Source of the DNA: a virus
Strand: one strand, 5' to 3'
Virus record (IMG/VR): IMGVR_UViG_3300030107_005327
Span: 1-29,138 of that record
Length of the DNA stretch: 29,138 nucleotides
Both the position numbers and the translations under genes were made by a program. Below, in pieces: positions 18,328 through 29,138 of this stretch (position 1 is its first letter; each line of letters opens with the position of its first letter). The notes under the pieces are model-generated. The model had not been told where the DNA came from, did not search any database, and saw only the letters and a program-made list of their open reading frames with translations.

Positions 18328-19290
18328 TTATGAAGCGTCTGATTTGATAAGAACACCAAGCGCGTCCTGAGCTTCGGACACACCGCAGAAGATTGAGGCT
18401 ACTGCAGAGCTCAATCCGTTGGTTGCATCGCGCTCGATCTCGACAAGCAACTCACCAGCATCGATTAGGATGTTTGAAGCTGGCACGTGAGAACCGCTCA
18501 ACGCCCGGACAGGCGCCATGGTGTATGCGAAGCAGTCCTTTGCAAACATAGCGCCGGCAAGGTGTGCGCCTGCGTCTACAGTTGCAATGCTGTCGCTCTG
18601 CCAGATGTCCACACCTTGGAAGTTGCCTTGATACCCTGGCGCGTTTGCCTTGGTGATCTCGCCAGTCTCAGCGCGGAAGTTCAAGAACGACCCAGGCTTG
18701 ACACTGTCGCCACCCTCAGACCGCAACGACTGTCGGAGCTGGTTCATTTGCTTAGGAGCAATGACGAGCGAGTAGGGCGCTTCAGCTGTGCTGGCAGCGT
18801 TTGCCAAGTTCAGATCGAACATTGCACCGTAGAACGCGTCGACGTCCATATCGGAGCCGGCATCACGTGAAGTAGACAGAGAACCGAACAGGTTGCACAA
18901 CAAGTCTGTCATTGTCAGGCCTACACCGTCAGAAAGAGTCTGCACGATAGCTGCCGCATCGATGGGACCACCGGTAACACCGAACAGATCCGACATCTGG
19001 TATTTACGCAGGTAACGAGCGATCTGAAGATCAAACTTACCAGAACCATATGCAGCGGGATCACCGGCACCACCGTGTGCAATTTCAGAACTTGCGGCGG
19101 TGAAACCACCGGGCGCACCATCGAGAGCAACCGACATGGTATCAGAACCAATCTGCGCCCATGGAACCTCAGTCATCACTGCGCGAAGGTCAGTAGGATC
19201 GTGGATCTTCTCGAAGAGTAGTGCAGAGAGCACAGAGGCAACGCGTCCACCAGCGCTGCTCAACCCGGTAAAGGTGATTTCATTAGCCAT
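18328..19290 (-). CDS. Major capsid protein, 320 aa
   Basis: The protein forms the head shell. Order (portal, scaffold, this gene) and length fit an HK97-fold capsid protein. It begins MANEITFTGLSSAGGRVASVLSALLFEKIHDPTDLRAV, and later shows PYSLVIAPKQMNQLRQSLRSEGG and the strand-rich C-terminal half including AGAMFAKDCFAYTMAPVRALSGS, which match the usual P-domain/A-domain pattern of a T4-coat/P22-like variant of the fold. ATG 19290 follows GAGG by eight bases. A strong terminator directly after the gene agrees with high, separate expression. The specific capsid family is not certain. Confidence 0.8.
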   Translation of the reverse strand: MANEITFTGLSSAGGRVASVLSALLFEKIHDPTDLRAVMTEVPWAQIGSDTMSVALDGAPGGFTAASSEIAHGGAGDPAAYGSGKFDLQIARYLRKYQMSDLFGVTGGPIDAAAIVQTLSDGVGLTMTDLLCNLFGSLSTSRDAGSDMDVDAFYGAMFDLNLANAASTAEAPYSLVIAPKQMNQLRQSLRSEGGDSVKPGSFLNFRAETGEITKANAPGYQGNFQGVDIWQSDSIATVDAGAHLAGAMFAKDCFAYTMAPVRALSGSHVPASNILIDAGELLVEIERDATNGLSSAVASIFCGVSEAQDALGVLIKSDAS

Positions 19291-25321: not shown

Positions 25322-25788
25322 TCTTCACCGCCGAGTGTGTAGATCCATACCTTGATTTCTGGCGTCTGGTCCTTGTCGCCGTAGACTTTTTGGATGTGCA
25401 CATCTACAAATTGCGCGTCGTTTTCAACGATGTATTTCGCTTTCTCGATGCCATCCTCAATGCTCTTTAGTAGGTTACTCGCATCCGGTTTTGATACGCG
25501 CCAAACGTAGCCACTGGGATCGGCCCGGCGGCACATCCTTTGAGGACGCGCAAACACACAGAGCACATCCAGCTTTACCGGCTCCGGCCCATTAGTCATC
25601 GGCTTCTGTCGTAGCGTAAACGCGCCCGCAATCCATCGCGCTACTGCGCCCTCAAAGTGCCGCGTCTTATCTGGCGTGTACGTCCTCACAGAGCCGTCCC
25701 GGCTTCTAACTGTGCGCGGCCGCTGCTTTGCCTGTGGTGCAATCGGTATCGTGTCGTGATGTCTTAGAACCCAATTAGCACGCAGCAT
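25318..25788 (-). CDS. rusA: RusA-like Holliday junction resolvase, 156 aa
   Basis: The enzyme cuts four-way junctions as a dimer. The family core is KPDASNLLKSIEDGI (residues 100-114) with Asp102 and Asp112, and NDAQFVDVHIQKVYG (123-137) with Asp124. The second aspartate of the classical PDxDN motif is Ser104 here, a substitution to note because the equivalent residue in E. coli RusA (Asp72) is catalytic; other family members also vary here, so activity is plausible but unproven. The N-terminal QRPRTVRS stretch is basic. ATG 25788 has GAGAGG upstream and overlaps the regulator gene; its stop overlaps the initiator ATG. Confidence 0.85.
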   Translation of the reverse strand: MLRANWVLRHHDTIPIAPQAKQRPRTVRSRDGSVRTYTPDKTRHFEGAVARWIAGAFTLRQKPMTNGPEPVKLDVLCVFARPQRMCRRADPSGYVWRVSKPDASNLLKSIEDGIEKAKYIVENDAQFVDVHIQKVYGDKDQTPEIKVWIYTLGGEE

Positions 25789-26047
25789 CTGTCAACCTCT
25801 CCGATGCTTGCGCCGCAAGATACCGCAGCTCCCTTGCTTGGTCTTCTGTGCAGTGTATAGCGCGGATCAAGTGCTCGAATTGTCCGGCCGTTGGTAGCCA
25901 CTCGCCGCGCTCTAATCGCGACAATCTGCCCTGGCTCATTCCTACGACGTGCGCCAATTTCTCACAAACCTGCATCTGTGTAAGCCCGTTGTTCTTTCGT
26001 GTTTCCGCAATGGCTATGCCGATTGCTTTGTAGTTTGCATTATCCAT
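25775..26047 (-). CDS. XRE/Cro-C1-type helix-turn-helix regulator, 90 aa
   Basis: A single DNA-binding domain fills most of the protein: LTQMQVCEKLAHVVGMSQGRLSRLERGEWLPTAGQFEHLIRAIHC (about residues 22-66) with the classical recognition helix SQGRLSRLERGE. It is the first gene of the minus-strand unit, so it would repress its own promoter and the opposing one through the palindrome at 26064-26078. The start at ATG 26047 is chosen for GGGAGG five bases upstream; the frame from 26074 would cross the operator. With no partner repressor seen, it is more like an early-to-late timing switch than a lysogeny repressor. Confidence 0.85.
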   Translation of the reverse strand: MDNANYKAIGIAIAETRKNNGLTQMQVCEKLAHVVGMSQGRLSRLERGEWLPTAGQFEHLIRAIHCTEDQARELRYLAAQASERLTDAAC

Positions 26048-26063
26048 GGGTCCTCCCGTTTGC

Positions 26064-26078
26064 ATGCTTGACAAGCAT
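26064..26078. promoter_or_regulatory. Operator: 15-bp perfect palindrome in the divergent promoter
   Basis: ATGCTTG-A-CAAGCAT has 7-bp arms around one central base. It covers the -35 of the plus-strand promoter and the -10 of the minus-strand promoter, so one bound dimer could block both. The neighbouring XRE-type regulator is the likely ligand. Confidence 0.65.
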
Positions 26079-26096
26079 ATGACAGTCCGGTATAAA
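26068..26096 (+). promoter_or_regulatory. Plus-strand promoter of the ERF-methylase unit
   Basis: TTGACA (26068-26073), a 17-base spacer and TATAAA (26091-26096) make a near-consensus sigma70 promoter. AGGAGG (26112-26117) then leads into the ATG at 26122. Confidence 0.8.
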
Positions 26097-26102
26097 CGTC
26101 AA
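26074..26102 (-). promoter_or_regulatory. Minus-strand promoter of the regulator-replication-structural unit
   Basis: On the minus strand TTGACG (26102-26097), a 17-base spacer and TATGCT (26079-26074) face the plus-strand promoter and occupy almost the same DNA. GGGAGG then precedes the regulator ATG at 26047. No other strong minus-strand promoter was found for the 24-kb unit below. Confidence 0.65.
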
Positions 26103-26121
26103 GACAACAACAGGAGGCACA

Positions 26122-26934
26122 ATGCCAGCAACCAAGAAGACAGATCATCCAGACTTTGCGTCGGCCATTGCTGCAGCTCAGGCGGACATGAGCAACGCCG
26201 TGAAGGACAGCAAAAACCCACACTTTAAAAAAACATACGCCGGTCTGCGTTCAATACGCGACATCGTGGTACCTGCATTTAACAAGCACGGAATAGCGGT
26301 GTTGCAGCCCGTAGATGGTGCCGATGGGTTCATGACGGGGCGCACGTTGCTAATGTGGAAGGACCAAACCCTTGAGATGGGCAATTGTACCCTGCCTATT
26401 GGTGGTGGCCGCAACGCCGCCCAAGATGTCGGAGCCGCTGCAACCTACCTTGCGCGGTATCAATTGCGCGGTGTCGGCGGCATAGCTGTAGAGGACGATG
26501 ACGGCGAAAGCTACAGAGGACCAAGGCCGCAGCAACGCCAGCAAACGGCACCAAGAAAAGCGCCTCCATTTGACGCTGCTATTGTCGCTTCTGATTACGC
26601 GCCTCCATTTGACGCTGCTATTGTCGCTTCTCATTACGCGCCGCCTGCTGCACCATCAAAACCACAACAAAAAAAACCTGTGCTGCAAGGCCCACCAGCA
26701 GTAGACGGCCCGAATTGCCCTAAATGCGGATCTGTTCTTAAAGTGAACATTAATTACCGAGCTTGGCTAAAGACGCTTTCAAACGAAGAACGAAAGCAAC
26801 AAAAGAAAAAGCCTGCGCTGCGTTGTAGTGACTGGAAAAAATGCGAATATACAAAATGGTCAACGGACGAAGCTCAACAGGCGATCGCGGATATTGCATC
26901 TAAGAAGGCATTTGATGATGGGTTGGACAAATGA
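26122..26934 (+). CDS. erf: ERF-family single-strand annealing protein with C-terminal zinc ribbon, 270 aa
   Basis: This recombinase anneals complementary single strands during replication and genome circularisation. The ERF core is clear: NPHFKKTYAGLRSIRDIV (residues 32-49), HGIAVLQPV, and GRNAAQDVGAAATYLARYQLRGVGGIAVEDDDGE (about 96-129). A Pro/Gln-rich linker contains a recent 13-residue duplication. The C-terminus carries CPKCGS and a later CSDWKKC pair, which could bind zinc and DNA. It is the first plus-strand gene, behind a near-consensus promoter and AGGAGG. With RusA on the other strand, it makes a recombination set. Confidence 0.9.
   Translation: MPATKKTDHPDFASAIAAAQADMSNAVKDSKNPHFKKTYAGLRSIRDIVVPAFNKHGIAVLQPVDGADGFMTGRTLLMWKDQTLEMGNCTLPIGGGRNAAQDVGAAATYLARYQLRGVGGIAVEDDDGESYRGPRPQQRQQTAPRKAPPFDAAIVASDYAPPFDAAIVASHYAPPAAPSKPQQKKPVLQGPPAVDGPNCPKCGSVLKVNINYRAWLKTLSNEERKQQKKKPALRCSDWKKCEYTKWSTDEAQQAIADIASKKAFDDGLDK
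26560..26637 (+). repeat. 39-bp tandem duplication in the ERF linker
   Basis: Two copies, 26560-26598 and 26599-26637, differ by one base (GAT versus CAT, Asp versus His). They encode APPFDAAIVASDY and APPFDAAIVASHY. The near-identity shows a recent duplication in the flexible linker. Confidence 0.95.
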
Positions 26935-27236: not shown

Positions 27237-27567
27237 TTACTCACTTTTGCGGAGATTGAAACAACGCGCGAAACACAAAGAGCAACAGAGAGCTCCAAAA
27301 ATAAAGCCAAATAGTGCGCGCTATTTTGTGCTTCTGTATGTCTGCACAGACCCGCCGGGCTCTTGGACGCAGAAAGACATGCTTATCGAGCTTCAAGACT
27401 TAGGCGTACCGAAGAGTACAGCTCAGTATGCGATAGACGGTCTCAACGCGCGCGGACTAATCAAGAAGAACAAAGTGAATCACCTGTCTACAACGCTCTG
27501 GCCTACCTACGCCGGGACACAGGCTATCAAACCGTTTCTACCTGAGAACGGGAGGGTTCAGCTGTGA
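27226..27567 (+). CDS. Winged-helix DNA-binding protein, 113 aa
   Basis: ATG 27226 has AGGAG upstream (27214-27219 region) and is preferred over the longer frame, which would lie inside the preceding gene. The start is basic (LLRRLKQRAKHKEQQRAPKIK). A winged helix follows (WTQKDMLIELQDLGVPKSTAQYAIDGLNARGLIKKNKV), with a wing-like basic strand. It could be a second transcription regulator or a replication accessory. Its TGA overlaps the next start as GTGA. No closer family can be named. Confidence 0.65.
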   Translation: MPVDYSLLRRLKQRAKHKEQQRAPKIKPNSARYFVLLYVCTDPPGSWTQKDMLIELQDLGVPKSTAQYAIDGLNARGLIKKNKVNHLSTTLWPTYAGTQAIKPFLPENGRVQL

Positions 27568-28289
27568 CACAGATACCACTATTGACGGTTCCCGAGCCAG
27601 CGCAGCCAAACAACGTGAAGCTCTACAACGGCAGTATTGATGATCTATTCAAGACTGTTAGAGACGCGCGAATGGTGTTTTGTGACCCTCCTTGGACGTA
27701 CAGCAACAGCGGAGACAAGACAAGAAGCGCAGCAAGCCACTATCCATGCCTGACAATGGCGGACATAGTTGGCCACGTACGGAAGGCCTACAGCTGTGCA
27801 GCTCCAGACGCTTACTTAGTATTGTGGGCAACCTTTCCGCTATTGGCCGAGTGGATGTCAGCAGCAACAGAAGACGCGATAGAATGGCGCTATGTCACTG
27901 GCGGCGCTTGGGCAAAGACGGGACCGCCTGGTAGCGGGTTTCATTGGAGAGGAAACGCGGAGCCGATTTTAATCTATCGCAAGGGTAGGCCTAAGCCGGT
28001 GAACACAAACCTTCTGCGGTCTGTGCACGTCACAGAGCAACACAGAGGCAGAGGCAGCAAGAGCGGAGAAGCGCTCGCGCACAGCGAGAAGCCTATTGCA
28101 TACCAGACAAATATGATTGAAGTATGGAGCTCGCCGGGCGATCTAATTTTGGACATATACGCGGGCCTATGTTCTGTTGGTCGGGCTACGGTTAGAGCTG
28201 GGAAAGGACGAAGGTACATAGGAGCTGAGATCGACCCCGACAGGTACAGGCAGGCGGTAGATCGCTTGGTGTTGGATGGTGGGCGGTGA
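27564..28289 (+). CDS. MT-A70-family adenine-N6 DNA methyltransferase, 241 aa
   Basis: The enzyme moves a methyl group from S-adenosylmethionine to adenine in DNA. The catalytic DPPW motif is at residues 41-44, and the cofactor motif LILDIYAGLCSVGRAT near the C-terminus; this DPPW-first order is normal for MT-A70 types. HSEKP near residue 173 is also typical. GTG 27564 overlaps the preceding stop as GTGA and has GGGAGG upstream. Its own stop overlaps the GTG of the cytosine methylase as GTGA. Two adjacent methylases without a nuclease suggest protection against host restriction or an epigenetic mark. Confidence 0.85.
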   Translation: MTQIPLLTVPEPAQPNNVKLYNGSIDDLFKTVRDARMVFCDPPWTYSNSGDKTRSAASHYPCLTMADIVGHVRKAYSCAAPDAYLVLWATFPLLAEWMSAATEDAIEWRYVTGGAWAKTGPPGSGFHWRGNAEPILIYRKGRPKPVNTNLLRSVHVTEQHRGRGSKSGEALAHSEKPIAYQTNMIEVWSSPGDLILDIYAGLCSVGRATVRAGKGRRYIGAEIDPDRYRQAVDRLVLDGGR

Positions 28290-29138
28290 GAATTGGATCA
28301 CTGTTTAGCGGAATTGGTGGGCTCGAGCTCGGATTAGAGCGCGCAATACCTGGAGCCCACACTGTATGGCAAGTAGAGCAAGACCCATACGCGCGAGCTG
28401 TGCTCGCTAAGCATTGGCCTGATGCGAGGAGATATGAAGATGTCAAAGAATTCAACCGCCAACAGTGGCTTTTTAAAAAGCCAGGACCCGTCGAGATTAT
28501 CTGTGGGGGCTACCCCTGTACAGGGCACTCGCTCGCAGGCAAAAGAAAGGGATTTGACGATCCCCGATCGGGACTGTGGACAGAATACACGAGAATCATT
28601 CGCGAGTTTAGGCCTCGATTCGTCGTGGTTGAAAACGTTTCCGCTCTTAGAAGCCGGGGAATCAGTCGAGTACTCGGAGACCTGGCCGCGTGCGGGTATG
28701 ATGCTGTCTGGGACTGTATACCGGCTCAAGCCGTCCGCGCCCATCATCGCAGGGACCGCATGTTCATTGTCGCATGGACCGAACACCACAGGTCAGTGGC
28801 CGACTCCAGCTGCAACGCTTCACAACTTGAACGAATCTCCAGAGATATTCCTGGATCGACAACAGAAGTGGGCGGAAGAGAAGGGGTATCACAACTCAAT
28901 CCCACTGACCGTAGCTGTAAAGATGTGGCCGACGCCAACTGCGATGCCTGCGGAGAATTATGGTGCAAAAAATGCCAGAGTCACTGGGCGCTGTGTGGAT
29001 GTCCAGGCGAGCACGAGGGAGACGTCATTAACTGCCCAGCAGAGCCTGAAACCGGAGAGCCTGAAACCGGAGAGCCTGAAACCGGAGAGCCTGAAACCGG
29101 AGAGCCTGAAACCGGAGAGCCTGAACCCGACGTGGGTC
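28286..29138 (+). CDS. dcm: DNA cytosine-C5 methyltransferase, N-terminal part (gene split by the contig edge)
   Basis: Motifs run in the standard order: FSGIGG (residues 7-12, cofactor motif I), GGYPCTGHS (motif IV with the catalytic Cys), VVVENV (motif VI) and HHRRDRMFIVA (motif VIII). After motif VIII the target-recognition segment holds a cysteine/histidine cluster (CDACGELWCKKC...CGCPGEHE) likely to bind zinc, followed by EPETG repeats. The reading frame leaves the window at 29138 and resumes through the terminal repeat in 1-281. GTG 28286 overlaps the adenine-methylase stop. Usual Dcm types have PCQ in motif IV; here it is PCT, with the catalytic cysteine kept. Confidence 0.9.
   Translation, partial: MRIGSLFSGIGGLELGLERAIPGAHTVWQVEQDPYARAVLAKHWPDARRYEDVKEFNRQQWLFKKPGPVEIICGGYPCTGHSLAGKRKGFDDPRSGLWTEYTRIIREFRPRFVVVENVSALRSRGISRVLGDLAACGYDAVWDCIPAQAVRAHHRRDRMFIVAWTEHHRSVADSSCNASQLERISRDIPGSTTEVGGREGVSQLNPTDRSCKDVADANCDACGELWCKKCQSHWALCGCPGEHEGDVINCPAEPETGEPETGEPETGEPETGEPETGEPEPDVG
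29022..29138. repeat. Terminal direct repeat, right copy, with five tandem 15-bp units
   Basis: This repeats the left terminus (1-135). Units of GAGCCTGAAACCGGA lie at 29042-29056, 29057-29071, 29072-29086, 29087-29101 and 29102-29116, against three in the left copy. The 48-base segment found at 66-113 is missing. The two versions differ by 18 bases, six codons. Confidence 0.9.

Follow-up and report, generated by a model that had tools for sequence, protein, structure and literature searches.

Interlocked divergent promoters and a single candidate operator at the junction of the XRE and ERF genes in a phage genome from IMG/VR

The locus analyzed here raises the question of whether a gap of 74 bp between two divergently oriented genes could be the point from which nearly all genes of a virus are controlled, and of what the small regulator encoded on one side of the gap would do to the promoters inside it. 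The locus belongs to IMG/VR virus record IMGVR_UViG_3300030107_005327, one record of 29,138 bases, which was analyzed over its whole length and is referred to below as the window. The gap (26048-26121) separates the gene for an XRE-family regulator of 90 amino acids (25775-26047, minus strand), the first gene of the predicted leftward transcript, from the gene for an ERF-type single-strand annealing protein (26122-26934, plus strand; Pfam ERF 1.3e-13, PHROG 155 2e-26), the first gene of the predicted rightward transcript, and it contains two sigma-70-type promoters and a palindrome.

Promoters and palindrome in the gap

The rightward promoter (26068-26096, plus strand) consists of a -35 element TTGACA (26068-26073), a 17-bp spacer, and a -10 element TATAAA (26091-26096), and the leftward promoter (26074-26102, minus strand) consists of TTGACG (26102-26097), a spacer of the same length, and TATGCT (26079-26074). 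Both were found where a sequence-only reading of this DNA had placed them, and its further claim that each promoter occupies the spacer of the other, with the leftward -10 adjoining the rightward -35, was borne out as well, the -10 element of each falling inside the opposite spacer. Its description of the two promoters as face-to-face was wrong, since the transcripts leave in opposite directions and the pair is thus divergent and interlocked, back to back, rather than convergent. Overlapping core elements of two opposed promoters, as recognized by sequence only, were present in all 11 contigs compared. Transcription is predicted to start at about 26103 on the plus strand (ERF side) and at about 26067 on the minus strand (XRE side), giving leaders of 19 nt and 20 nt, respectively, each of which contains a Shine-Dalgarno-like sequence (AGGAGG at 26112-26117, plus strand, for the ERF gene; GGGAGG at 26052-26057, minus strand, for the XRE gene).

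To evaluate how these promoters compare with the rest of the window, all 58,276 positions on both strands were scored with a sigma-70 matrix of E. coli frequencies, and the rightward promoter ranked first and the leftward promoter third. The number of equal or better scores expected per shuffled window was 0.3 for the rightward promoter and 3.5 for the leftward one, so that the leftward promoter alone is unremarkable. This expectation speaks for an explanation in which the rightward promoter is real, the leftward match is a coincidence, and the XRE gene is expressed by other means. The interlocked composite of both promoters (TTG, TA..T, TAT, and CAA in the same register), a pattern defined after the site had been seen, has a single occurrence in the window and was absent from all 100 shuffles. 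A simpler promoter scan overlooked the rightward promoter because it required a T at the final -10 position.

The palindrome (26064-26078, no strand) is 15 bp long, with two 7-bp arms around one central base (ATGCTTG-A-CAAGCAT), and is a candidate operator for the XRE regulator. It had been said to cover both the rightward -35 and the leftward -10, which is correct for the entire -35 but for only five of the six bases of the -10. Inverted repeats with 7-bp arms and gaps of 0 to 8 number 12 in the window, and one of these falls inside the 74-bp gap in comparison to 0.03 expected; three perfect palindromes of the 7-1-7 type exist in the window, this one included. Both the window and a syntenic relative of 27.6 kb (G001) contain the sequence CTTGNCAAG a single time, in each case at this junction, and a search of the window for further exact copies of the operator returned none. 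Judged by sequence, no other site is a strong candidate for the operator, and the palindrome has no second copy in the genome. A candidate CTTG half-site over the rightward start was inseparable from the leftward -35, and the matches listed for the bare palindrome in a scan of the collection were not counted as evidence, as chance alone is likely to give about as many in a collection of that size (an estimate, not a computed value).

Position of the junction in the genome

The two ends of the contig share sequence, and one cytosine methyltransferase reading frame crosses them (28286-29138 and 1-281), suggesting a genome that is probably circular or permuted and that the assembly interrupted at the end repeat. 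The end repeats are tandem, with EPETG in their translation. In this layout, the main open reading frames examined are all leftward from 26047 down to 2059 and all rightward from 26122 onward, across the contig end and as far as 2058, and, for the main open reading frames chosen for the layout, no second divergent junction was found. The 27.6-kb relative has the same order and the same divergence for the matching genes. The leftward array continues after the XRE gene with RusA, replication, packaging, structural, and lysis genes, and the rightward arm carries DNA methyltransferase genes at 27564-28289 and from 28286 onward, the latter being the cytosine methyltransferase. Neither an integrase gene nor a second repressor gene was found among about 38 open reading frames compared with Pfam and/or PHROGs, many of which had no match of any kind. 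Some other features were observed along the way: a gene of the PAPS-reductase family at 982-2058 in the rightward arm, a tandem duplication of about 39 bp in the ERF gene past the ERF domain (26560-26640), and a promoter-like site at 2409-2436 (TTGCCA-16-TATAGT), which ranked second in the window and lies close to the convergent end, antisense to the leftward genes.

The junction had been proposed as the main control point for nearly all genes of the phage. The layout agrees with this in that the main genes diverge here and no other divergent junction exists among them, but a terminator-like hairpin on the minus strand (18321-18286; 15 pairs followed by a T-rich stretch), which lies intergenically in the leftward array after the gene at 18328-19290, argues against a single unbroken leftward message of 24 kb. 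This same gene is preceded by a 111-bp gap in the leftward array, so that the hairpin and the gap together leave room for internal control.

Conservation of the junction in relatives

Relatives were searched for with the XRE protein, the ERF protein, the neighboring replication-like gene, and the terminase as queries. Ten other IMG/VR contigs cover the junction, six of them found through XRE, L145 through the replication-like gene, and L146, L154, and L158 through the terminase; L002-L007, L088, L141, L142, L144, L151, L152, L164, and L167-L170 are repeat entries for these same contigs. With the window this makes 11 contigs and nine distinct sequences, the block common to L137 and L138 and the block common to L139 and L140 each being counted once. 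The identity of the XRE proteins to that of the window runs from 94% down to 52% across the relatives that cover the junction. The upstream gene-match check and one of the promoter comparisons took as input L088 and L135-L166 only.

The results showed that both promoters keep a common register and a 17-bp spacer in all 11 contigs, the shared pattern being TTGnnn-17-TAnnnT leftward and TTGnnA-17-TATnnn rightward. The leftward -10, TATGCT in the window, becomes TAGTCT and TAACCT in the two most distant relatives (L154 and L158), with the middle altered and the TA...T kept. The rightward -10 occurs as TATAAA, TATCTT, TATAGT, and TATGAT, the last two being those of the two most distant relatives, with TAT always kept and the final T missing from five of the nine distinct sequences. 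The leftward -35 retains just the TTG of the consensus in six of the nine and becomes TTGCnn beyond the nearest relatives of the window. The persistence of the leftward pattern in 11 of 11 contigs despite base changes in between, together with a leftward start which would yield a 20-nt leader carrying a Shine-Dalgarno sequence, makes it very unlikely that the leftward match is a coincidence beside a real rightward promoter.

Within the aligned block of 39 bp, 19 of the 39 columns are invariant overall in comparison to 11 of the 12 sigma-70-important positions, which were chosen from general knowledge (p 4e-4), and outside the palindrome, six of seven sigma-70 positions are invariant in comparison to 3 of 17 others (p 0.004), both p-values being optimistic since the sequences are related by descent and were aligned on the promoter pattern itself. 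A looser choice of the rightward -10 positions, made after the sequences had been seen, gave 12 of 12 invariant and was not relied on.

The palindrome itself is less uniform. All seven paired arm positions match in five of the nine distinct sequences, six of seven in L145 and L146, five in L158, and four in L154, and the wear in the last two, the most distant relatives, is confined to a single arm, the one over the leftward -10, while the half-site over the rightward -35 is nearly fixed across the nine. The worn arm in these two relatives, and the fact that the invariant part of the palindrome largely coincides with promoter hexamers, would fit an explanation in which the palindrome is a binding site for a host protein or a by-product of overlapping -35 and -10 hexamers, with the XRE regulator acting elsewhere. 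However, TGC-TTG (26065-26070) is invariant in all nine distinct sequences, and its first three bases, 26065-26067, lie outside any promoter element. In addition, each of the ten junction-covering relatives has the candidate operator next to its XRE gene, and the segment QGR(L/I)SRLERG of the XRE proteins, presumably the recognition helix by its position, is invariant except for one residue and is conserved together with the palindrome half-site. We thus regard a host-protein site or a by-product as improbable, and a palindrome that serves as the operator of the XRE regulator as the preferred reading. The relatives in this way indicate which bases the polymerase would need and which the regulator would need.

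The module does not appear to be held in place across the whole group. The terminase search gave 24 loci, most of which stop too close to the terminase to include the junction, and in two distant terminase relatives with 2.6 to 2.9 kb upstream (L157:1-2618 and L159:1-2894) no match to XRE, ERF, RusA, or the replication gene was found in that interval. Of the contigs returned by a profile search with RusA, 10 were known already and 12 were distant (27% to 40%). One further contig, L171 (38% identical), was dropped; its setting is different and the palindrome is absent from the stretch compared. Neither the scanned bacterial and archaeal genomes (genome_contigs) nor the phage records yielded a close relative of the regulator, the one match in the phage records being 39% identical over 68% with an E value of 6e-3, suggesting that this phage group is undescribed in those collections.

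The regulator, its probable action, and comparable systems

The 90-residue protein matched Pfam HTH_31 (1.6e-9) and HTH_3 (9.7e-7), both above the cut-offs, and an AlphaFold2 model built from nine sequences had five helices and a mean pLDDT of 86.6. Both its sequence and its predicted fold are those of an XRE-type helix-turn-helix protein, with many XRE chains at VIA-align Z scores of about 9 to 10.8. A Foldseek search with the model gave nothing at E<=0.001, the best matches being an XRE protein, ClgR, and restriction-modification controller proteins. C.Esp1396I, C.BclI, and C.AhdI were among the top structure matches, at 14% to 24% identity, and were tied with ClgR, ComR, and RodZ; a reading of the fold as that of a restriction-modification C protein was considered, but the VIA-align scores do not set these proteins apart from other XRE proteins. 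No restriction endonuclease linked to the regulator was found among the open reading frames scanned, several of which had no match, and no peptidase or sensor domain was matched in the regulator, for which 90 residues would leave no room.

The anatomy of the locus is well supported, and we consider it likely, from the arrangement of these elements, that the interlocked promoters share a single operator bound by XRE and that both are repressed by it. The locus would then be the place from which divergent transcription of a small tailed phage is centrally controlled, with nearly all gene expression arising from about 40 bp. Two polymerases would exclude each other from the same 35 bp, on which the two promoters are interlocked; the rightward, stronger-looking promoter would serve the ERF gene and those following it, and the leftward one the XRE gene and then the RusA, replication, packaging, structural, and lysis genes. 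XRE probably binds the single palindrome as a dimer. The center of the palindrome (26071) corresponds to about -32 of the rightward promoter, in its -35 region, and to about -4 of the leftward promoter, over its -10 and start, and a protein placed there is thus expected to repress both, so that the ERF promoter would have its -35 occluded and the XRE operon would be negatively autoregulated. Early after entry, when the regulator is absent, the rightward promoter may dominate, and as XRE accumulates both promoters would reach a self-limited level. Repression of an operon that includes the structural genes requires a balanced steady level, relief, or other late promoters, and neither relief nor other late promoters were found for the leftward operon. 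A more far-reaching proposal seems to us doubtful, namely that transcription of both arms starts nowhere else than in this single-operator element of about 40 bp, so that a small autorepressor would fix both the ratio and the total of recombination and structural expression by polymerase exclusion. The locus would in that case be a non-lysogenic, genome-wide switch with the logic of a restriction-system controller, no lysogeny genes having been found in the open reading frames scanned.

Another explanation is that XRE represses one promoter, for example that of ERF, and activates or spares the other, as Rco of pLS20 does at its own promoter, in which case the switch would be directional. The leftward -35, weak in six of the nine distinct sequences as would suit a regulator-assisted promoter, is consistent with this, and in Kpn2I less competition between polymerases is described as giving more divergent transcription of the C gene (PMC11736437, PMC5333194, PMC6237814). 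However, the palindrome lies over the leftward -10 and start, a position expected to block, and no second operator was found upstream of the leftward -35. We therefore hold such a switch to be unlikely, and repression of both promoters to be the better explanation. The locus would be a compact and well conserved case in which two promoters and an operator share about 40 bp, each element under separate constraint.

Among phages, the lambdoid cI/cro region is similar in having divergent promoters and a helix-turn-helix regulator (PMC4488713). Cro of PY54 has one operator, as here, but up to 40 bp separate that operator from the cro promoter, unlike here (PMC4488713). The second repressor gene and the integrase expected of a cI/cro switch were not found here in the open reading frames scanned, many of which had no match. 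A phage switch with just this design did not turn up in the literature searched, which is not to say that none has been published. Bidirectional promoters of E. coli and Salmonella resemble the junction in that opposite polymerases compete for one stretch of DNA; they are described as having reciprocal -10 elements and starts 7 to 25 bp apart, with 18, 10, and 23 being common (PMC12825309, PMC10268837). The junction is not a bidirectional promoter in the sense of Warman et al., as about 36 bp separate its predicted starts at 26067 and 26103 and each promoter has a -10 of its own.

Similar divergent switches are already known from plasmid pLS20 and from the restriction systems EcoRV and Kpn2I. 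In the Bacillus plasmid pLS20, the overlapping divergent promoters Pc and Pr are under RcoLS20, which is encoded by one of the arms, and the geometry is nearly the same, with the Pr start preceding the Pc -35 by 6 bp in comparison to 1 bp here; Rco uses several sites in two operators together with DNA looping, whereas one operator was found here, and Rco activates and then represses its own promoter (PMC4207663). EcoRV and Kpn2I have, as here, a small controller gene in divergent orientation with overlapping promoters that admit one polymerase at a time, and the Kpn2I controller is reported to inhibit the strong promoter on the divergent side, the -35 of that promoter being the likely site (PMC11736437, PMC5333194, PMC6237814). 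Two differences are evident from the same sources: the C-boxes either comprise two dimer sites (the typical case, and EcoRV) or lie inside the C gene (Kpn2I), and the divergent gene encodes a methyltransferase, whereas here it encodes ERF and the methyltransferases follow further downstream (PMC11736437, PMC5333194, PMC6237814). The arrangements of pLS20, EcoRV, and Kpn2I all function, with differing signs of autoregulation, suggesting that the interlocked arrangement found at the XRE-ERF junction is a workable one.
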